Positions 4,656-45,444 of a stretch of DNA of 64,000 bases are shown in pieces. The notes below the pieces were generated by a model, which was given only the letters and a program-made list of their open reading frames with translations, was not told the origin of the DNA and did not search any database. The stretch is from Cloacibacillus sp. An23 (lineage in GTDB: Bacteria > Synergistota > Synergistia > Synergistales > Synergistaceae): the NCBI RefSeq assembly GCF_002159945.1, contig NZ_NFJQ01000005.1, positions 62,001-126,000 of the forward strand, given 5' to 3'. Position 1 is the first letter of the stretch. Each line of letters begins with the position of its first letter. Made by a program: the position numbers and the translations under genes.

Positions 4656-5366
4656 GGCGCGCTCCAAAGCGCGGACAATCTGGCGTTCTTCAAAACCGTC
4701 GTGCGCACGATCGCCTCGCGCGACTGGCTTTTCGCGTCTTTCATGCCGAAGCCGCTGTATGGAGAAAGCGGGAACGGCCTTCACTTCGATATATCTGTCT
4801 TCAAAAACGGCGCGGATAAAGCGCTTTTCATGGGGCCTGAGATCGAAGGGGCCATATCAGGGATAATGAGCCATATCGAAGAAATGACGCTGTTTTTCAA
4901 CACTACGACGAACTCTTACCACCGGCTCGGCTCTTTCGCCGCGCCTCGATTCGTAAGCTGGGGCGGCGGCAACAACAGGTCGCAGCTCCTTCTCGCCAAA
5001 CGCGCGAGGGACGGCTCGGCGCGGCTTCTGCTGCGCTCGCCAGACCCGCTGTGCAGCCCGTACTTCGCCTACGCCCTGCTTATCGAGGCGGCGATGGAGG
5101 GTATCTTGTCGAAGAGCCGTCCCGAAGCCCCGTCCGATTTCGACATCTCGCGGGCTCCCGCGGAGCTTCTCAGCCGGTACAGGCGGCTGCCGGAAAGCCT
5201 CGGCGACGCCGTAGAGGCGGCGCGGAACAGCGCTTTTCTGAGAAGCCGCATTCCGCAGGCCGTAATAGACAAAATGCTGGAGTGCAAGTCCGCCGAATGG
5301 GAAGCGTATCTGCGCGCGGAGGACCGCGCTCAGTTCGAAATGTCCTCTTATTTCGAGGCTTTGTAG
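4656..5366 (+). pseudogene. Glutamine synthetase remnant (C-terminal half only)
   Basis: The frame reads as the C-terminal half of a type I glutamine synthetase: ADNLAFFK, FMPKPLYGESGNGLH, NTTTNSYHRLG, NNRSQ and RSPDPLCSPYFAYALLIEAA. The N-terminal beta-grasp and first half of the active site are missing. Homology starts within about 10 codons of the upstream stop, where there is no Shine-Dalgarno sequence; the first possible start is GTG 4701. Active-site positions are altered: the usual E-x-R-x-PD reads L-x-R-x-PD, and the second His of the GSGMHxH motif reads Asp (HFD). This looks like a deletion remnant. A truncated, catalytically dead protein that is still made cannot be excluded, since the frame has no stop. 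Confidence 0.7.
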
Positions 5367-5386
5367 TAAAGGAAAGACGAAGTCTG

Positions 5387-5980
5387 ATGGGAAACGGCTT
5401 TCTGATAGTCTCGGCATCGCGAGGCAACATCAGGGCGCTCCGCTCGATCGCCTCCGCGGCGGGCGGAGCTGCGGAAGCCCTCTCCGGCGCGCAGGCCCGC
5501 CGCCTGCTTGCCGAACGCGAGTTCACGGACGTCGTTATAGACACTCCGCTCCCAGACGAACCCGGAGCCGAACTCGCGCTCTATGCCGAGCGGCGGTGCA
5601 GCGGAGGCGTGATCATCTTCGCAAAGCGCGAGATTGCATACGAGCTTGAAAAAGCCGCCGCGGCGCGCGGCGTCATCGTCGTCCCGAAGCCCGTGGACAG
5701 AGACGCGCTCCGCGTGTCGCTGCGCGCGCTCGAAATCATGCGCGGCAAGCTCGCGTTGGCCGAGGAAGAGAACCGCCGCCTGCGCGAGCGGCTTGAGAAC
5801 GAAAGAATCGTCTGCCGCGCGAAATGTTTCCTGATCCGGCGCTTCGGGTTCGACGAGTCGGAAGCCCACAGGTACATCGAAAAAACGGCCATGGACAGCC
5901 GCTGCTCAAGACGCGAGATAGCCGAGGACATAGTCGCGCGGCTGGGAGGCGCGGAAGCGGCGGGCGGCGGAGAACGCTAA
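5387..5980 (+). CDS. ANTAR-domain response regulator (NasT/AmiR-like antiterminator)
   Basis: This 197-residue protein has a receiver-like N-terminal domain (FLIVSASRGNIRAL, then VVIDTPLPDEPGAELAL, then VVPKPVDRDAL). A short coiled coil follows (EIMRGKLALAEEENRRLRER). The C-terminal ANTAR three-helix domain runs over residues 140-190 (KCFLIRRFGFDESEAHRYIE, then REIAEDIV). ANTAR domains bind paired RNA hairpins and prevent termination. Similar proteins sit beside glutamine synthetase or glutamate synthase genes in clostridia and control nitrogen genes. Here it ends the glt operon, whose leader carries a terminator. AAAGGAAAG precedes the ATG. Phosphorylation dependence is unclear. Confidence 0.85.
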   Translation: MGNGFLIVSASRGNIRALRSIASAAGGAAEALSGAQARRLLAEREFTDVVIDTPLPDEPGAELALYAERRCSGGVIIFAKREIAYELEKAAAARGVIVVPKPVDRDALRVSLRALEIMRGKLALAEEENRRLRERLENERIVCRAKCFLIRRFGFDESEAHRYIEKTAMDSRCSRREIAEDIVARLGGAEAAGGGER

Positions 5981-5994
5981 CCCCATGCGGCATT

Positions 5995-7371
5995 CTACCT
6001 CGGCGTTTTCCACCTGCCGCTTTTCAGGAACCACAGGCTTATCATTATCGTCAGCGCGGATGCGAGCGGCGCTGCGAAGCCCACGGTGAAAAGGCTGGCT
6101 CCGGCCATGCCGCTCAGTATCCACGTCGCCGGCACGCGCACCGCGAAAGCCGAGAAAATGTTGTTCGCCATCGTGAAAGTCGTGTGTCCGCAGCCGTTGA
6201 AGAAGCCGTTCATGCAGAAGACGAAGCAGACGAGTATGCAGTCGATGCTGAACGACCGCAGATAAAGCGCCGTCGCGTCGATGAGCTCGCGGTCGGGCGT
6301 GAATATGCGAATGACTATCTCGGGGAAGAAGAACAGCATCGCGAAGGTCGCGACGCCGAAGGCGAGCGAAATCGAAAGCCCGGACAACATCGTCGAGCGC
6401 GCGCGATGCGGCTTGCCCGCGCCGATATTCTGCGCGACCATCGCGGAAATGGCCGCGGCGAAAGAGTTCGGCGGCAGCATCGTAAATCCGTTGAGCTTGC
6501 CCGTGATGCCTATCGCCGCCGCAGCCGCTACGCCGCCCATCTTGCTCACCGTCGCGAGAATGAAGATGAACGAAATGCCCGTCAGCGAAAACTGCACCGC
6601 CATCGGCAGCCCGATGCGCAGAAGCTGAGCGAGCTTCTCGCGCTTTATCCTCATGCTCGCGAGTTTGAAGTCGAAATGATAATCGGCGCGGCGCGCGTAG
6701 ACAACCGCGAGATAGGCGGAAAATCCCTGCGAAAAAACGGTCGCTATAGCCGCGCCCTCAGCGCCCATATCGAAAATGCCGACGAGCGCGAGGTCGCCCA
6801 CGATATTCAGCACGCATGCGACCGCTACGAACATCAGCGGCGAGACGGAGTCCCCGAAGCCGCGGAAGACGGCGGCGAGCGCGTTGTAGGCGAACATCGT
6901 CGCCAGCCCTGCTACGTTGATGAATACATAGCCGCGCGTCGGCGCGAAGGACTCGGGCGGCGTGCCGAGCAGCCGCACTATCGGGTCGATGAAGAGCAGC
7001 AGCCCAGCCGTTATGACGACGCTTAAGAATGCGAACAGAGTCAGCATAGTGCCTATCGTGTCCTTTATCTCCTCCAAGCGCCCGGCGCCGAAGTAACGGC
7101 CTATCATTATCGTACCGCCTATCGAAAGGCCTATGACGATGCTGTTTATCATAAAGATGAACTGGCTGCCGATGGAGACGGCCGAAAGGCCCGCCGCGTC
7201 CGTGAACTGGCCGACGATTATCATATCCGCCGCGCCGTAAAGCGCCTGAAGCAGATTCGCCGCCATGTAGGGAATCGCGAAGCGCGTCAGCAGCAGCGGG
7301 ATGCTGCCCTCCGTCAGCGACTGCGCGCCGGTCGAGAATATGCCCGAGAAAAATTTCTTGAAGTCTTTCAT
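5995..7371 (-). CDS. MATE family efflux transporter
   Basis: This 458-residue protein has about 12 membrane segments and MATE features: EGSIPLLLTRFAIPYMAANLL at the start, and AMVAQNIGAGKPHRA near the middle. It should export cationic drugs or metabolites in exchange for Na+ or H+. ATG at 7371 starts one base after the stop of the upstream MATE gene, so the two are co-transcribed. No strong Shine-Dalgarno sequence is seen, which fits translational coupling. An upstream TTG (7389) would add six residues and is less likely. The two products might form a heterodimer-like pair, but MATE proteins normally act alone. Confidence 0.85.
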   Translation of the reverse strand: MKDFKKFFSGIFSTGAQSLTEGSIPLLLTRFAIPYMAANLLQALYGAADMIIVGQFTDAAGLSAVSIGSQFIFMINSIVIGLSIGGTIMIGRYFGAGRLEEIKDTIGTMLTLFAFLSVVITAGLLLFIDPIVRLLGTPPESFAPTRGYVFINVAGLATMFAYNALAAVFRGFGDSVSPLMFVAVACVLNIVGDLALVGIFDMGAEGAAIATVFSQGFSAYLAVVYARRADYHFDFKLASMRIKREKLAQLLRIGLPMAVQFSLTGISFIFILATVSKMGGVAAAAAIGITGKLNGFTMLPPNSFAAAISAMVAQNIGAGKPHRARSTMLSGLSISLAFGVATFAMLFFFPEIVIRIFTPDRELIDATALYLRSFSIDCILVCFVFCMNGFFNGCGHTTFTMANNIFSAFAVRVPATWILSGMAGASLFTVGFAAPLASALTIMISLWFLKSGRWKTPR

Positions 7372-7372
7372 T

Positions 7373-8770
7373 TTACTGCGTCTGCACAAACCTTTCTTGA
7401 TCCTTCAGCCTGCGAAGGAAGTAATAGAGGAACGGCAGGCTCGTCAGGAAGCTGAAAATATCCGAGACCGCCTGCGTGATTTCCACGCCCGTCATGCCGA
7501 AGAGTCGCGGAAGGACGATTATCAGCGGAAGGAAATAAATTCCCTGCCTCGTGCATGCGAGGAACGTCGCGCGCCACGCTAAGCCAGAAGCCTGGTGCAT
7601 CATATTCGTACCGACGAACAGCGGCTGAAGCAGAAGAGCCGCGCACTGGAAGCGCATCGCGCGCGTGCCTATGGCTATGACCTCAGCGTCGTCCGCGCGG
7701 AAAAGCGCGATAATCTCCGGCGCCAATATCCAGCCGGCGAGCGTCAGCGCCGTCATCATAACCATCCCCGTCTTGACCGTGAACCAGAAAGCCTCGCGCA
7801 CGCGCGCGTAATGCCGCGAACCGTAGTTGAATCCGACGACCGGCGTGAAACCCTGCCCGAGCCCTATCATCACTGAAAGGATAAAAAGGAATATCCTGCC
7901 GACTATCGACATCGCCGCGACAGCCGCGTCGCCGTAAGCGCCCGCGCTCGCGTTGAGCGCTGCCGTCGAGATGCTAGCGAGCCCCTGCCGTGAAAGCGAC
8001 GGGCAGCCGAGGCGCACTATCTCGAAATACGTCGAGGCGCGCCGCGAAAGATTGCGCACGCTTATCGCCGCCATGCTCTTTTTTCGCAGGAAGAACGAAA
8101 GCAGGATAGAGAAGCTCACGCACTGGCTCAGCAGCGTGGCCGCCGCCGCGCCCGAAATGCCGAGGCCGAAGGTGAAAATGAAGATCGGGTCGAGAACGAT
8201 ATTCAGCAGCCCGCCGGTGACGAGGCCGCACATCGCAAAGGCGGAATGCCCCTCCGCGCGCAGGATGTTGTTCATCACGAAAGCGCAGCACATGACCGGC
8301 GCTCCGAGCAGAATCCACCGGGCGTAGGCGCGCGCGTATGGAAGTATCGTCGGCGTAGAGCCGAGCAGGCGCATCAGCGGATCGATAAAAATCAGCCCGA
8401 AGACGCATATGCACGTCCCGAGCGTCAGAGCGCTGAAAAAAGAACACGAAGCATAGACGCTCGCCGACTGTGCGTCGCCCGAGCCCAGCCTGCGCGAGAT
8501 CACGCTGCCAGCGCCCATGCCGAGCGTGAAGCCCGTCGCCTGGAAAATAGCCATCAGACAGAAGACGATGCCGACCGCGCCGCTCGCGCTCGTCCCGAGC
8601 TGCGAGACGAAATAGGTGTCGGCGGTGTTATAAAGCGCGCTCGTCAGCATACTCAGGATAGTCGGCACGGCGAGGGAAATTATAAGCGGCCCGATAGGCG
8701 CTTCGGTCATCCTCCTGCGCTGTTCGTCGCGGCTCTGCGACGCCGCTGCGAATATATTGAAACGGCCCAT
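7373..8770 (-). CDS. MATE family efflux transporter
   Basis: This 465-residue membrane protein shows MATE hallmarks: MTEAPIGPLIISLAVPTILSM, ALYNTADTYFVSQLG, VISRRLGSGDAQSA and GFTPVVGFNYGSR. ATG at 8770 is preferred because GGGGTGG lies four bases upstream; the ATG at 8818 has no ribosome-binding site and adds an Arg-rich leader not typical of the family. It is the first gene of a two-gene MATE operon. Substrate specificity cannot be read from the sequence. Confidence 0.85.
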   Translation of the reverse strand: MGRFNIFAAASQSRDEQRRRMTEAPIGPLIISLAVPTILSMLTSALYNTADTYFVSQLGTSASGAVGIVFCLMAIFQATGFTLGMGAGSVISRRLGSGDAQSASVYASCSFFSALTLGTCICVFGLIFIDPLMRLLGSTPTILPYARAYARWILLGAPVMCCAFVMNNILRAEGHSAFAMCGLVTGGLLNIVLDPIFIFTFGLGISGAAAATLLSQCVSFSILLSFFLRKKSMAAISVRNLSRRASTYFEIVRLGCPSLSRQGLASISTAALNASAGAYGDAAVAAMSIVGRIFLFILSVMIGLGQGFTPVVGFNYGSRHYARVREAFWFTVKTGMVMMTALTLAGWILAPEIIALFRADDAEVIAIGTRAMRFQCAALLLQPLFVGTNMMHQASGLAWRATFLACTRQGIYFLPLIIVLPRLFGMTGVEITQAVSDIFSFLTSLPFLYYFLRRLKDQERFVQTQ

Positions 8771-8891
8771 CCGACCACCCCGCGGGCGCGCGGAGACTCG
8801 TCCGCGCTCAAAGTTCATCTTTATAAAATACCACTAAATCCGGCCTTTCTCAATAATCGCACGCGCCAGCCGCGCATGGACGAAAAGGCGC

Positions 8892-8923
8892 AAAAAATCC
8901 GCCGCGCCGAAAAACGCGGCGGA
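8892..8923 (-). terminator. Terminator of the focA-like gene
   Basis: Read on the minus strand, TCCGCCGCG pairs with CGCGGCGGA (8915-8923 with 8898-8906, 9 bp) and is followed by six T residues (8892-8897). It lies about 40 bp past the stop codon of the FocA/NirC gene. Confidence 0.75.
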
Positions 8924-8964
8924 AAACGGAAAATCTTGAAAGAAACGTTAAAAATACGCGGGGC

Positions 8965-9753
8965 TCAGCTCTTCACGAGCTCCCTCCTGAAAACGGCGAA
9001 ATAGCAAAGCGCAACGAAAACGACGCCGCCCGCGGCATTGCCCGCCGTGACGAAGAAAATATTCTTAAAAAACGCCGCGGCCGTCAGCGCAGGCTCCGTA
9101 CCGCCGTTCAGCATGAGTCCGAGCGGGATGAAGAACATATTCGCGACGCAGTGCTCGAAGCCGAGCGCGACGAAAGCCGAGATAGGCAGCAGCGCCGAGG
9201 CGAGCTTGCCGGTAGTATCCTGCGCGCCGAACGAGATCCACACCGCGAGGCAGACGAACCAGTTGCAGAGCACGCCGCGCACGAGCATCTCCTTCACGGG
9301 CAGCGAGACCTTCGCCGCCGCGAGCGCGACGGCGTTCGCCTGACAGAGCGGCGAAAGGACGCCGCTCGCGTAAATCATCGAAGCGAAGAACGCCGCGCCC
9401 GCGAAATTGGCGCAATAGACGACGCAGAGATTGCGCATCATCGAAGAAAATGAGAATTTCCCCGAAAGCAGCCCTATGGGCATGAGGCAGTTGCCTGTGA
9501 AAAGCTCCGCTCCCGCGGTAAGCACGAGAAAAAGGCCGAGCGTAAAAACCAATCCGCCGATCAGCTTTGAAATTCCGACGCCCGCGGCCTGAACCGCGTC
9601 CTGCGTGACGACCAGCATAAAAGAGCCGCCCATCCCGATATAAGCCCCGGCCAGAAGCCCCATAAGCGCCATCGGCAAAAAAGGCAGCCTGCTCTTGACG
9701 ATCCCCGCCTCGAGCACGGCCCGAGAAATCTCCGCCGGCGTCCTGATTCCCAT
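8965..9753 (-). CDS. Formate/nitrite transporter family protein (FocA/NirC-like)
   Basis: This 262-residue protein has six predicted membrane helices and the FNT pattern: AGAYIGMGGSFMLVV, LVLTAGAELFTGNCLM, NFAGA, GVLCNWFVCLAVW, FEHCVANMFFIPLG and GNAAGGVVFVALCY. FNT channels pass formate, nitrite or related monovalent anions. In a fermenter with formate-tetrahydrofolate ligase (26.8 kb), formate is a plausible substrate, but this is inference. AGGAG precedes ATG 9753 at good spacing. It is monocistronic, with terminators on both sides. Confidence 0.85.
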   Translation of the reverse strand: MGIRTPAEISRAVLEAGIVKSRLPFLPMALMGLLAGAYIGMGGSFMLVVTQDAVQAAGVGISKLIGGLVFTLGLFLVLTAGAELFTGNCLMPIGLLSGKFSFSSMMRNLCVVYCANFAGAAFFASMIYASGVLSPLCQANAVALAAAKVSLPVKEMLVRGVLCNWFVCLAVWISFGAQDTTGKLASALLPISAFVALGFEHCVANMFFIPLGLMLNGGTEPALTAAAFFKNIFFVTAGNAAGGVVFVALCYFAVFRRELVKS

Positions 9754-9812
9754 AAAAATTCTCCTCTCAGGTTTTTGCAGGCTATTATAACCGACCGCCG
9801 TCAAAAATGCGT

Positions 9813-9853
9813 AAAAAAGCCCCGCCGTCCGGCGCGTGGCGGAGGCGGGGCTT
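9813..9853 (-). terminator. Terminator of the TRAP operon
   Basis: A 10-bp stem AAGCCCCGCC/GGCGGGGCTT (9844-9853 with 9817-9826) on the minus strand is followed by a T-run. It closes the six-gene operon that starts with larA at 15785. Confidence 0.75.
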
Positions 9854-40228: not shown

Positions 40229-40939
40229 CTATTTATCAGCGCCGGGACGATCAAGCTTCAGCGCCGGGTCTTCGACGCCGTTGGCCTCGAAGGCGCGGCG
40301 GCGGTCGATACAGGTGCCGCAGACGCCGCACGGCTTTTCCCCGCCCTGATAGCAGCTCCACGTAAGTTCGTAGGGGACGCCGAGGCGCAGTCCCTCGGCT
40401 ACGACCTGCGCCTTGTTTTTGTCGATGAACGGCGCTTCAAGCCGCAGGGCTTTGCCGCTGCCTTCATAGACCGCGCTGTTCATGCTTCTGAAGAACTCCT
40501 CGCCGCAGTCCGGATAGGCCGCGCCAGCCGCGTCGTCGCGGTGCGCGCCGTACCAGACGCTGCGGCAGCCGAGCGAGAGCGCGACGCTCGCCGCGCAGGA
40601 GAGAAACAGTCCGTTGCGGAAAGGGACGTAGGTCGAGACCGGCGCGCCGCCCGAAGCCGCGATCTGCTCGGCGTACGGCGCTTCCGGCACTGCGGCCTCA
40701 GAGCGCGCGAGCAGAGAGCATCCGCTGTAGGCGAAGACGGCGGAGAGGTCCAGCTCTATTCCCTTCACGCCGTAACGCGCGAGTATGCGCTCCGCGGCCC
40801 GTATCTCTTTTTCGTGTTTCTGCCCGTAGCGTATCGAGAGCGGTATCACGTTTTCCTTCCCGTATTTTTCAACAGCGAGCGCCAGACATGTCGCGCTGTC
40901 CACGCCGCCGCTGAACAGCACCATCGCTTTGCAGGCCAT
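40229..40939 (-). CDS. queC: 7-cyano-7-deazaguanine synthase QueC
   Basis: This 236-residue PP-loop ATPase has VLFSGGVDSATCLALA, PLSIRYGQKHEKEI, VPFRNGLFLSCAAS and four zinc cysteines in WSCYQGGEKPCGVCGTCIDR. It makes preQ0 from carboxy-deazaguanine and ammonia. ATG 40939 has GAGG upstream; a longer form from 40963 would overlap queF and is unlikely. It is the last gene of queT-queF-queC under a preQ1 riboswitch. QueD and QueE are not in the window. Confidence 0.94.
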   Translation of the reverse strand: MACKAMVLFSGGVDSATCLALAVEKYGKENVIPLSIRYGQKHEKEIRAAERILARYGVKGIELDLSAVFAYSGCSLLARSEAAVPEAPYAEQIAASGGAPVSTYVPFRNGLFLSCAASVALSLGCRSVWYGAHRDDAAGAAYPDCGEEFFRSMNSAVYEGSGKALRLEAPFIDKNKAQVVAEGLRLGVPYELTWSCYQGGEKPCGVCGTCIDRRRAFEANGVEDPALKLDRPGADK

Positions 40940-40949
40940 CGATGCAACC

Positions 40950-41447
40950 TCAGCGGTTGTCAACTTTCTCTGGATACATGTCGTGGCGCGCCAGCCGCTC
41001 GAAGGCGACCTGCTCCCAGCGCGTGCCCTTCCTGCCGTAATTGCAGTACGGGTCTATGGAGATGCCGCCGCGCGGAGTGAATTTGCCCCAGACCTCGATG
41101 TACTTAGGGTCCATCAGGCGAATCAGATCCTTCATTATTATGTTGACGCAGTCCTCGTGGAAATCGCCGTGATTGCGGAAGCTGAACAGGTACAGCTTGA
41201 GCGACTTGCTCTCCACCATGCGCTCGCCGGGAACGTAGGATATGTATATCGTCGCGAAGTCCGGCTGCCCCGTCATAGGGCAGAGGCTCGTGAACTCGGG
41301 GCAGTTGAATTTCACGAAATAATCGTTATCCGTGTGCTTGTTCGGGAATGTCTCAAGCAGCCCGGGCGCGTAATCGTCGGGGTATGAGACGCGCTTGCCG
41401 CCGAGCAGCGAAACGCCGCTCAACTCTTCTTTCGTACGTCCGTTCAT
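40950..41447 (-). CDS. queF: NADPH-dependent preQ0 reductase QueF
   Basis: This 165-residue protein is the short (unimodular) QueF. It has [21 protein letters not shown] with the nucleophilic Cys, [20 protein letters not shown] (QueF motif) and [10 protein letters not shown]. It reduces preQ0 to preQ1, the base inserted into tRNA for queuosine. The gene lies 28 bp after queT and 10 bp before the queC start. AAGGAG lies upstream of the ATG. Confidence 0.94.
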
Positions 41448-41475
41448 ATCGTTCGCTCCTTATTATGATTTGGTT

Positions 41476-41994
41476 TTATATGCCGTTCCTGCCCTGCTCC
41501 GCAGCGGCGCGCGTGCGGCGCGCGTTTTCAAGCAGCTTCACGAGCCCGACTCCGGCGAAGGACGGTACGAGCTGGCCTACGCAAAGGTTGAGCGCCATCA
41601 GCGGATAGGGAATCCCGAGAATATAGGACAGATAGATGGAGACGCCGAGCCCGGGCACAAGCACGATAGGCACGGCTATCAGCATACGGTTCCAGTTTTT
41701 GCGCCGTATCAGGACGATGCACGCCGCAGCCGTCATGCCGACGACGCAGCCGCCGAGCATGTCCACGACGCCGAAGCCTCCGAAGAGCATGTTCGAGATG
41801 AAATTGGCGAGGCCGAGCGGCACGACGAGAAACGGGAAAAGATAGGCGAGCGCGTAAAGGCAGGTCGCGATGCGTATCTGGTACGCGCCGAATGAGAAGC
41901 TCGAGGTGAGGCTTAGCACTACGACATAGAGCGCCATCACCATGGCCGAAAATGTCAGTTTTTGCAGGCGGGTCATGTTGTCCGCGTTTTCCAT
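41476..41994 (-). CDS. queT: QueT-family queuosine-precursor transporter (ECF substrate-binding component)
   Basis: This 172-residue protein has five or six membrane helices and the QueT pattern: LTFSAMVMALYVVVLSLTS, FGAYQIRIATCLYALAYLFP and GLANFISNMLFGGFGVVDML. It is an ECF-type S component expected to import preQ1 or a related base. GGGAGG precedes ATG 41994. It is the first gene after a terminator and preQ1-I riboswitch, matching a role in precursor uptake. The ECF energy-coupling genes lie elsewhere. Confidence 0.88.
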   Translation of the reverse strand: MENADNMTRLQKLTFSAMVMALYVVVLSLTSSFSFGAYQIRIATCLYALAYLFPFLVVPLGLANFISNMLFGGFGVVDMLGGCVVGMTAAACIVLIRRKNWNRMLIAVPIVLVPGLGVSIYLSYILGIPYPLMALNLCVGQLVPSFAGVGLVKLLENARRTRAAAEQGRNGI

Positions 41995-42353: not shown

Positions 42354-42362
42354 TGTTATACT
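42354..42362 (+). promoter_or_regulatory. Extended -10 promoter of the three-gene AAA operon
   Basis: TG-T-TATACT is an extended -10 element 50 bp upstream of the first gene. No clear -35 box is present, as is common for extended -10 promoters. Confidence 0.45.
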
Positions 42363-42411: not shown

Positions 42412-43851
42412 ATGATAGATATCACAGATTTCAGCCCGGAGACGGTGCGCGGCGGAAGCGCTCTGATGCTCGGGGGCAACGACAGGAAGGCCGCGAGCTT
42501 CCGCGCTCTCGTGGAGGCGTGGCCGCGCGCCTTCCCGGAGGACGCGCTTATCGTACTGGATCATTCCGGGCGGCTTTACGAGAGCTTTGAGGGTGATGCG
42601 GCTCTGGCGGACTTGTCGAGCGCCGGCTCCGTCGTCCCGGACCTTATCGAGCCGTTCGCGCTGAACGAGACTGCCGGAGAGTCGAGCGCGAATATCGCGA
42701 ACGCGGTGCGTCAGGCGGCGTATCAGGAGATACGCTCGCGCGACGCGAACGACAAGTTTTTCGACGACCTCGGCAAGCTCGTCACCGACCGCATGATAGT
42801 CTATATGCTCGAGACGGAGCGGAACGTGCTGCTCAATATCGCCGGCGGCGAGGTGGAGGGCGTGCTTCCAAGGCTGAACCTTTTCACTATTTTCTGCCGT
42901 CAGCACAGGTATGTGGAGTCGCTGATGACGAAAGCCGTCAGCGGCGAAAAGGACGCGCTGCCGGACAAGCGCGCGATCATGGGCGCGGAGTTCCGGCGCG
43001 GCGCGCGCACGAGGGAGTACGCGCTCGCCGAGTATATTCTCGATAAGGAGCTGCGTTTCCAGAAAAACGGCGGCCGCGAGGCCCCGGTGCCATTCGCCGA
43101 CCTGCTTTTCACCACCTCCGAGACCTCGAACACGCAGCGCTGCATCAAGATGCAGGCGGACGCGAGCACGGCCGATTTCCGCGCTCTGCTCTCCCTCGTA
43201 ACGGAAAAGGCGGCTCTGCTGAACGGGCTGCCGACGCTGAAGCTCGGAAAATTTTTCGATTCGCCGGACGGAGTGCCGCTCTTCGTCTGCTCGTGCGGGA
43301 ACGCCGCGGCGGACAGGGGCTTCGCGGCGCTGCTGACGGCGGCGGCCGGCGCGGCGGCGCAGAACGCGGGCAAACGCGCCGTGGTGTTCGTGCCGGAGCT
43401 CGACCGCTGGGGGCTCGTCAATCTGCTCGACAAGCTGCGGCAGAACTGGGACGGACTGAATTTCGTCTTCGGATACGAGAATTTTTCGCGCCTGTCGCTC
43501 GAAAGCCGCTCCGAGGAGGCGCAGCTCATCGAGACGCTTTATTCGCTGAGCGACCGCCGCGTCTGGCACGCGACGAAGGAGGAGCGGCTCAACAAAGCCT
43601 TCGCCTCCTACGTATCGGACGCCGACGTCATCTACAGGCCGGACGACCTAGACGAAGAGCTGCGAGCCGTCGAGGAGGACGGGCGCGTGCGCTACACGGC
43701 GCTCGAGGAGAGGCCGGCGGAACGCGTCCGCGAACGAATAAAGCTGCGTGCGCGGCGCGGCGCGGAAGCGAAGCTCTGGATAACGGGCGGCGCGGCAAAG
43801 AGGGAGCCGCTGACGCTCGAATCGCTGCTCGAGGAGGGGGAATCGCTGTGA
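42412..43851 (+). CDS. VirD4/TraG-like protein with degenerate Walker A, function unknown
   Basis: This 479-residue soluble protein is not assigned to a known family with certainty. Its start (SALMLGGNDRKAASF, then DALIVLDHSGRLYESF) follows the VirD4/TraG pattern of P-loop and DPKGELYE. The P-loop Gly and Ser/Thr are lost, so it probably cannot bind ATP normally. The C-terminal part (RAVVFVPELDRWGLVNLLDK, then NFVFGYENFSRL, then VWHAT) resembles the TraG/TraD C-terminal ATPase segment. No membrane helices are seen. It overlaps the AAA+ gene by 4 bp (GTGA), so the products likely act together. Confidence 0.5.
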   Translation: MIDITDFSPETVRGGSALMLGGNDRKAASFRALVEAWPRAFPEDALIVLDHSGRLYESFEGDAALADLSSAGSVVPDLIEPFALNETAGESSANIANAVRQAAYQEIRSRDANDKFFDDLGKLVTDRMIVYMLETERNVLLNIAGGEVEGVLPRLNLFTIFCRQHRYVESLMTKAVSGEKDALPDKRAIMGAEFRRGARTREYALAEYILDKELRFQKNGGREAPVPFADLLFTTSETSNTQRCIKMQADASTADFRALLSLVTEKAALLNGLPTLKLGKFFDSPDGVPLFVCSCGNAAADRGFAALLTAAAGAAAQNAGKRAVVFVPELDRWGLVNLLDKLRQNWDGLNFVFGYENFSRLSLESRSEEAQLIETLYSLSDRRVWHATKEERLNKAFASYVSDADVIYRPDDLDEELRAVEEDGRVRYTALEERPAERVRERIKLRARRGAEAKLWITGGAAKREPLTLESLLEEGESL

Positions 43852-44669
43852 GGAACGCACGGGAAAAGCTGCCGCCGCTCTGCGCAAAGTACGGACATCA
43901 GCTCGGGCGCGGAACGCGCGGCGTGGAGCAGATACTTGAGGATTTCGGCGCGCTCGACAGGATAGCGGTCGCGCTCGCCTCCGAGGAGCAGAACAATGTC
44001 GCGCTGACCGGCCCCGCCGGATGCGGCAAAACCTCCACTGTACACAAGCTCGCGGAGCTTATCGACGAGGGGCGCTACGCGCGGCTCGCGGGACGGCGCG
44101 TCGTCGTGCTCAACATCGACCTTATAAATCAGGAGAAGGAGAAGCGCGACCTGCGCTTCAAGCACATTCTCGACGAGGCTGAATATTACGGGATAATCAT
44201 CTACGTGGACGAGGCGCACAGGCTGAGCGAGAATCTCGGCCCGTCGAACCTGCTCAACACCTTGAAGCCGTACATCACGAGCGGCGGGATAAGCATGCTC
44301 ATTTCGACAACCTCCGAAGAATACAGGCAGTACATAGCGCGCGACAGGGCGATGGAGCGGCGCTTCCAGTCCATAGAGCTGAAGGAGCCGGACCACGAGA
44401 GGCTCGTCCGCATAATAGAGCGCGTCGCGCGCGTGCGCTATCCGAACACCGAGATAACGCCCGAGGCGATAGAGGAGACGACGAGGCTCGCCGCGCTCTG
44501 CTCGCCCGAACGCTGCGAGCCCGCGCGCTCGCTCGAACTGCTCCACTACGAGATTTCGGCGGCGCGCATAAGTCTGCCGCCGGACATCGACGTCGGGGCG
44601 ATCACGGCCGCGGACGTGCGCCGCGCCGCCGCGCTGAAGACCGGCGGAAATATTGTCGGGGAGATGTAA
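43848..44669 (+). CDS. Single-domain AAA+ ATPase related to ClpB/ClpA nucleotide-binding domain 1
   Basis: This 273-residue protein is one AAA+ module. Walker A is TGPAGCGKTSTVHKLAELI (near residue 47), Walker B IIIYVDEAHRLSE, sensor 1 MLISTTSEEYRQYIARD and the arginine finger region MERRFQSIEL, all close to ClpA/B NBD1. It lacks the Clp N-domain, coiled-coil middle domain and second ATPase domain. GTG 43848 follows GGAGGGGG. With an upstream VirD4-like pseudo-ATPase and a downstream helical protein it forms an operon of unknown function; remodelling of a partner complex is plausible. Confidence 0.75.
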   Translation: MRNAREKLPPLCAKYGHQLGRGTRGVEQILEDFGALDRIAVALASEEQNNVALTGPAGCGKTSTVHKLAELIDEGRYARLAGRRVVVLNIDLINQEKEKRDLRFKHILDEAEYYGIIIYVDEAHRLSENLGPSNLLNTLKPYITSGGISMLISTTSEEYRQYIARDRAMERRFQSIELKEPDHERLVRIIERVARVRYPNTEITPEAIEETTRLAALCSPERCEPARSLELLHYEISAARISLPPDIDVGAITAADVRRAAALKTGGNIVGEM

Positions 44670-44671
44670 GC

Positions 44672-45244
44672 ATGCTCAAAGCCACATTGGAACTTTGCTC
44701 CGAATACGATCTCGAGGCGCGCTCGCGCAGCGCCTCTCTCGCAAAAAAAACGCTCGAGCAGATACACCGGGAGTATCTCGAAGCGCTCTTTACGGCGGCG
44801 CGCCGCCACAGGCTCGATATATGGGACTTCGCGCAGAAGTTCATGGACTCGCCCGTGTCGCTGCGCCTGGACAGGCCGGAGACTCTGCTGACCACGGAGT
44901 CGGAGTTGCTGTTCCGCGACTTTTCGATATACTGCGTGCAGAACCATATCGAGCTCGCGACAGCGCCTGACGCGAACGCCGGGATGAACGCCTTCCGCAC
45001 CATCTCGCCGGAGGCGAAGTGGCTCGCCGCGATATATTCCGCGTGGCACGCCAAGACGGGCGAGGCGGGCCGCGAGATAGTCGAGCGCGCGCCGTCTTCG
45101 CTGCTGCGCAAGATACACAAAAAGGCCATGAAGCATCCGACGGAGGACGTGCTCGAGCTGCTGCTCGACTATTCCGCCGAGGCCGCCGAAATCTCGCCTG
45201 CCGACTGCGCGCTGCTCGAAAAGGCGCGCGCCGCCTCGGAGTAG
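44672..45244 (+). CDS. Small helical protein of the AAA operon, unknown function
   Basis: This 190-residue protein has no recognised domain. It appears mostly alpha-helical (LELCSEYDLEARSRSASLAK, KKTLEQIHREYLEALFTAAR, KKAMKHPTEDVLELLLDYSA) and has no signal peptide or membrane segment. It starts two bases after the AAA+ stop codon and ends before a strong terminator, so it is the third member of the operon. An adaptor or substrate of the ATPase is a reasonable guess only. Confidence 0.6.
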   Translation: MLKATLELCSEYDLEARSRSASLAKKTLEQIHREYLEALFTAARRHRLDIWDFAQKFMDSPVSLRLDRPETLLTTESELLFRDFSIYCVQNHIELATAPDANAGMNAFRTISPEAKWLAAIYSAWHAKTGEAGREIVERAPSSLLRKIHKKAMKHPTEDVLELLLDYSAEAAEISPADCALLEKARAASE

Positions 45245-45370: not shown

Positions 45371-45400
45371 AAAGGCCGCCGTTCCTCCGGCGGCCTTTTT
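45371..45400 (+). terminator. Terminator of the AAA operon
   Basis: AAGGCCGCC (45372-45380) pairs with GGCGGCCTT (45390-45398) around a short loop and is followed by TTTTT. It lies only 45 bp before the GTG of the next gene. Confidence 0.8.
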
Positions 45401-45444
45401 CACGCTCCGCGAAAGAGACGGGGGCGTCGCGCGGCGTCGGCATC

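Follow-up and report, generated by a model that had tools for sequence, protein, structure and literature searches.

Type IV coupling proteins act as motors by which DNA or protein is drawn into type IV secretion systems, and like HerA they are DNA motors. HerA itself serves as the scaffold of two-gene machines in the defence pairs HerA-Sir2 and HerA-DUF4297, and a further group of importance here is formed by the Hsp100/Clp ATPases ClpA, ClpB, ClpC and ClpV. VirD4 homologues recruit their substrates through the all-alpha domain; in Cag-beta of H. pylori, this domain is bound by CagZ, a small helical protein, which prevents the ring from assembling (PMC9886983). In the window, the whole analysed stretch of 64,000 nucleotides from Cloacibacillus sp. 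An23, an operon was found that encodes a protein with a predicted VirD4 fold, an ATPase of the ClpB type and a helical protein (Table 1). The operon is common to six genera of gut bacteria and looks like an undescribed molecular machine. Both folds are known, but the open-access papers searched contained no description of a VirD4-like protein paired with ClpB, of the inactive gene 1 or of an NBD1 that stands alone.

Table 1. Positions of the operon, its genes and its flanking signals in the window.
Feature	Position	Strand	Description
Three-gene operon	42412..45244	+	479, 273 and 190 codons
Gene 1	42412..43851	+	ATG start, 479 aa; predicted cytosolic VirD4/TrwB-fold pseudo-ATPase
Gene 2	43848..44669	+	GTG start, 273 aa; single ClpA/B-type NBD1 AAA+ ATPase
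Gene 3	44672..45244	+	ATG start, 190 aa; all-helical, no known family
Helical insert of gene 1 (approximately residues 92-283)	42685..43260	+	from the secondary-structure order of the AF2 model; local confidence low in places
Extended -10 promoter element TGTTATACT	42354..42362	+	sequence reading
Terminator-like stem-loop with T tail	45378..45402	+	6 pairs scored; not above shuffled expectation

A sequence-only reading of this DNA had described three tightly coupled genes between an extended -10 promoter and a strong terminator. The coupling is borne out by the coordinates, with an overlap of four bases (GTGA) between gene 1 and gene 2 and a gap of two bases between gene 2 and gene 3. The promoter element was likewise found, and TGNTATNCT recurs in relatives: six genomes from four genera, that of the window among them, carry it 58-63 bases ahead of gene 1, and two further genomes at -90/-95, which gives an extended -10 in eight of the ten operon copies. 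Upstream of gene 1 in the other two copies it is missing, and one of these is located directly after pepF. A generic sigma-70 scan did not list the element at 42354-42362, because it is not accompanied by a -35 element. With regard to the terminator, the hairpin and its T tail exist; however, its strength is only plausible, since six pairs are formed and the number of terminator-like sites in the region (five observed, shuffle mean 3.2) does not exceed the shuffled expectation. An Rfam search of the stretch revealed no family. Directly upstream of the operon, on the opposite strand (40229-41994), a queuosine-like gene set (QueC-, QueF- and QueT-like) is located.

The gene 1 product showed no match to the models of Pfam, NCBIfam, PHROG or PADLOC. 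An AF2 model was built from 11 homologues (mean pLDDT 59, highest in the core strands) and compared to the PDB using Foldseek. The first 32 matches were all chains of type IV coupling proteins such as TrwB and Cag-beta (E 2e-6 to 2e-4, probability 1.00; TrwB E 2e-6), followed by HerA, a Legionella coupling complex and VirB4. The VirD4/TraG outline claimed earlier for this protein is thus supported by the predicted fold, though this rests on a model of moderate confidence. According to the model, gene 1 shares with the coupling proteins the order of the elements and a helical insert in the nucleotide-binding domain, which occupies the place of the all-alpha domain. Landmark residues are D50-G53 (DHSG), N113-D114-F116 (NDKFF) and P328-E329 at the Walker B position. 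By eye and in a joint alignment, the DxxG after the second strand and the NDxF at the start of the insert resemble DPKGE and QDPFW of the CD1115 proteins, and the stretch that aligned best with CD1115 is the diagnostic one (DHSGRLYE/DPKGEILR, EPF/NPF, NDKFFDDLGK/QDPFWDTSAS).

Proof of descent from VirD4 was not obtained from the sequence, as the hhalign scores of gene 1 against VirD4 (19-27, without significance) were inside the shuffled range (maximum 25). Neither PF02534 nor the NCBIfam VirD4 models gave a family match for any gene 1 member. The sole plasmid and phage matches of a distant cousin of gene 1 (E 0.6 and 0.4) were both CD1115 VirD4 proteins, which is suggestive of kinship but not significant.

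In contrast to the type IV coupling proteins (VirD4/TrwB/TraG, PF02534; CD1115; Cag-beta), gene 1 carries no ATPase motifs. Walker A (GxxxxGK[ST]) is absent from all 11 homologues, in agreement with the destroyed Walker A that had been noticed in the window, and Walker B is lost too, with PE instead of DE at its position in the ten close homologues. Furthermore, gene 1 starts approximately 15 residues ahead of the first core strand, where CD1115 proteins carry approximately 130 residues, and in this comparison the N-terminal membrane helices are absent. It also differs from the coupling proteins in having neither secretion or mobilisation genes at its side nor a significant sequence match. HerA, a more distant neighbour in fold, retains its ATPase motifs and is not combined with a Clp module in the HerA-based pairs; gene 1 fits the coupling proteins better.

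The gene 2 product matched the NCBIfam models of ClpV, ClpA and ClpB (4e-26 to 3e-20; TIGR03345 4e-26) and, among the structures, ClpC (6e-22), with other ClpC and ClpB entries being weaker. The best and full-length matches are those to the NBD1 of Clp/Hsp100 proteins, beside a weak similarity to clamp-loader and TniB proteins. That gene 2 encodes a single ClpA/B NBD1 domain with intact motifs, as had been proposed, was confirmed: Walker A (GPAGCGKT, 55-62), Walker B (YVDE, to 122), sensor 1 (TT) and the arginine fingers (ERRF) are present and shared with the Hsp100/Clp ATPases, to which gene 2 aligns along NBD1. Unlike these, it ends after this one NBD and is paired with a predicted VirD4-fold protein; the N-domain, the M-domain and NBD2 with the ClpP loop are all absent. 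When the motifs were compared with those of the three full-length Clp proteins of the same genome, the pore-loop-1 region was found to be shortened by three residues and to contain the charged KEKRD (loop KEKRDLR, basic) where KYRG stands in Clp. The pore-loop-1 aromatic residue is missing in gene 2, whereas two of the three full-length proteins possess KYRG or KFRG. Because this pore loop has no threading aromatic residue, an ordinary ClpB action of gene 2 is doubtful.

Those phage matches of gene 2 that were inspected turned out to be ordinary Clp reading frames, and a phage origin was rejected. A link to type VI secretion was considered because ClpV is the best model for gene 2, and was rejected, too: among the 53 genomes of the family, VipB occurs in only the two genomes of the genus of the window and in none of the other five operon genera. 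The type VI secretion cluster of the window's genome is located outside the window, approximately 110 kb from the operon (L143, G000:C5:206000-221835), and comprises reading frames for TssB, TssC, Hcp-like, ClpV, TssF-like and VgrG-like proteins.

For the gene 3 product, an all-helical AF2 model with a mean pLDDT of 80 was obtained. No significant match was found in the PDB, BFVD (viral predictions), Pfam or NCBIfam, and no toxic domain was recognisable. Gene 3 occurs in exactly the ten operon genomes and in no other of 188 genomes (E < 0.001); the frame of one weaker match (G124, E 0.009) resembles an unrelated helicase-locus protein and was taken as chance. A kinship with the helical partner of DUF3990 genes was also considered; examples were found, but it was rejected, as comparing the profiles lent it no support (P 0.06 and 0.46). 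In these examples (L060 1106-2417 and L061 1142-2456), the DUF3990 genes overlap a gene whose helical product carries an HTH at its C-terminus; they are located on plasmid- and phage-labelled contigs of gut Firmicutes and have the look of toxin-antitoxin pairs. With regard to the combination with gene 1, Cag-beta and CagZ likewise present a VirD4-fold protein beside a small all-helical partner (PMC9886983). However, Cag-beta is an active secretion-system ATPase and is not accompanied by a ClpB-like gene, and in fold gene 3 matches none of the PDB entries.

The distribution was surveyed in 188 genomes of Synergistota, 53 of which belong to the Synergistaceae. Gene 1 was detected in 11 of them: ten carry the full operon, and the eleventh carries a distant cousin. 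The ten operon genomes are all Synergistaceae and represent every sampled member of six genera, and the operon is absent from the remaining 43 genomes of the family (sixteen other genera). Named genome-contig matches were also exclusively Synergistaceae, including Candidatus Caccocola and Synergistes. A recurring three-gene order had been proposed as the mark of a real system, and both this order and the four-base overlap of genes 1 and 2 are kept in all ten genomes. In an RpoB tree, several deep forks of which were unresolved, the operon genomes cluster (2 changes in comparison to 8.4 with shuffled labels). The trees of gene 1 and gene 2 recover identical well-supported pairs and are broadly congruent with the species tree. 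Furthermore, dN/dS values of 0.15, 0.08 and 0.14 for genes 1, 2 and 3, calculated from the two genomes of the window's genus, show purifying selection. The presence as part of the clade core, the congruence of the trees and the low dN/dS values fit a long vertical inheritance with retained function. A phage or plasmid origin of the operon was considered and rejected, as gene 1 had no match in plasmids, phages or viral contigs.

The flanks of the operon vary. Glycine-reductase-like genes (assigned by eye) were found in some genera, and an M3 oligopeptidase together with a gene of metallo-beta-lactamase fold in others. In three genera the oligopeptidase gene closely precedes the operon, and gene 1 of G004 follows directly on it; it is mostly accompanied by the metallo-beta-lactamase-fold gene (L027 4839-6674; L021-L023, L025 and L026). 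Neither relaxase, VirB4 or other type IV secretion genes nor linked DNA-processing genes are among the operon neighbours in the ten genomes, which agrees with the earlier remark that conjugation, relaxase and secretion genes are missing nearby. In addition, no PF02534 coupling protein is encoded in the genome of the window, so that a conjugation context is not given.

Two distant cousins of the operon were identified. First, a second locus of G020 (L028, G020:C4:24000-43000, positions 5059-9651) contains a gene 1 with 24% identity and a gene 2 of 571 aa, in which NBD1 is followed by an apparent degenerate NBD2 (by reading); genes for an HTH protein and an ImmA/IrrE peptidase come next. Second, in G141 (L029, G141:C1:1496000-1514000, positions 6875-9837) gene 1, a gene 2 with a single NBD1 and a clpP gene (PF00574, 4e-77) are located on one strand with tight spacing, and the other full-length ClpP of this genome is encoded elsewhere. 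A dedicated ClpP is thus found in the G141 cousin only and not in the operon of the window. Since gene 1 of G141 is frameshifted in the assembly, the cousin may be decayed or misassembled; this arrangement was found in one genome only. The C-terminal tail of its gene 2 ends in a VGF tripeptide reminiscent of the ClpP-docking loop, and a large protein without Pfam match follows. In both cousins, the pore-loop region of gene 2 has retained a tyrosine, which is missing in the main family. The cousins are only approximately 24-34% identical to the main family and still keep genes 1 and 2 together while the third part is swapped, which points to gene 1 and gene 2 as the core and to a third part that changes.

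The reading that we favour, tentatively and with a little less than even confidence, is that of an inherited, cytosolic AAA+ machine for protein handling, in which gene 2 would be the motor, gene 1 the scaffold or the receptor for substrates, and gene 3 a partner. A ring of the ClpA/B-type NBD1 of gene 2 would supply ATP hydrolysis. Gene 1, no longer able to bind ATP and devoid of a membrane anchor, would retain the substrate-recruiting helical insert and could form a complex with gene 2, acting as its receptor or scaffold. Gene 3 might dock on gene 1 or regulate it, analogous to CagZ on the all-alpha domain of Cag-beta. The substrates would be proteins, since the cousin with ClpP points to protein handling, and in the G141 lineage the machine would be joined to a dedicated protease. 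In the lineage of the window, remodelling or switching is likelier than threading or degradation, given the missing pore-loop aromatic residue and the absence of an attached protease. More tentatively, the operon might represent a class of its own, in which a stand-alone motor, the ClpB-type NBD1, has a pseudo-ATPase of VirD4 fold as its receptor or scaffold and the third part, ClpP or a helical protein, is exchangeable.

The sequence-only reading had suggested a role in defence, DNA handling or protein delivery. These roles remain unsupported, as the operon is clade-core and without matches in mobile elements, and the ClpP cousin points to protein handling. An anti-phage or immune system, with gene 1 as sensor, gene 2 as ATPase switch and gene 3 as effector, is unlikely. 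The third component is indeed swapped between the cousins (ClpP, ImmA/IrrE, helical protein) as effectors would be, the second copy in G020 adjoins HTH and ImmA/IrrE genes, which is a common mobile-element setting, and gene 1 has a structural neighbour, HerA, with a defence role. However, neither gene 1 nor gene 3 matched a PADLOC family, gene 2 showed nothing but a weak generic ATPase similarity, and gene 3 is without a recognisable toxic domain. Phage defence is the less likely role because the operon is fixed in six genera, where it broadly tracks the RpoB tree, and absent from plasmids, phages and viral contigs. Conjugation is less likely, too.

It is quite unlikely that the operon was domesticated from a conjugative or secretion system and handles DNA, with the dead coupling protein as the DNA-binding part and the NBD1 as a regulator of the clamp-loader or TniB type that acts on a DNA partner. 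The predicted kinship of gene 1 to DNA motors, the weak clamp-loader and TniB similarity of gene 2 and its basic, non-aromatic pore loop would fit such a function; the full-length Clp/Hsp100 matches of gene 2, the lack of linked DNA-processing genes in ten genomes and the protein work indicated by the ClpP cousin argue against it.

Quite improbable, too, is that the three genes are an unrelated, co-transcribed trio whose products do not act together, the VirD4 likeness of gene 1 being an artefact of a model with low confidence. The pLDDT of 59 and the sequence scores inside the shuffled range are consistent with this explanation, but overlap and order are kept in all ten copies across six genera despite changing flanks, and genes 1 and 2 stay paired even in the cousins. 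A device for protein secretion or delivery, in which gene 1 acts as VirD4 does in a type IV coupling complex, is very unlikely: its predicted fold and the type VI cluster in the same genome are in favour, whereas gene 1 has neither an N-terminal membrane region nor ATPase motifs, PF02534 is missing in the genome and type IV genes near the operon, and the type VI cluster is confined to two genomes of one genus while the operon occurs in six genera.

If the operon indeed encodes a protein-handling machine with gene 1 as receptor or scaffold, a dead coupling-protein fold would be tied to a ClpB-type ATPase across genera, and this fold would be reusable purely as a receptor. It would furthermore mean that an Hsp100 NBD1 can work without its second ring. 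The operon and its cousins, in which NBD2 is degenerate or absent and ClpP is attached or not, would then form a natural series for probing the role of each Clp ring.
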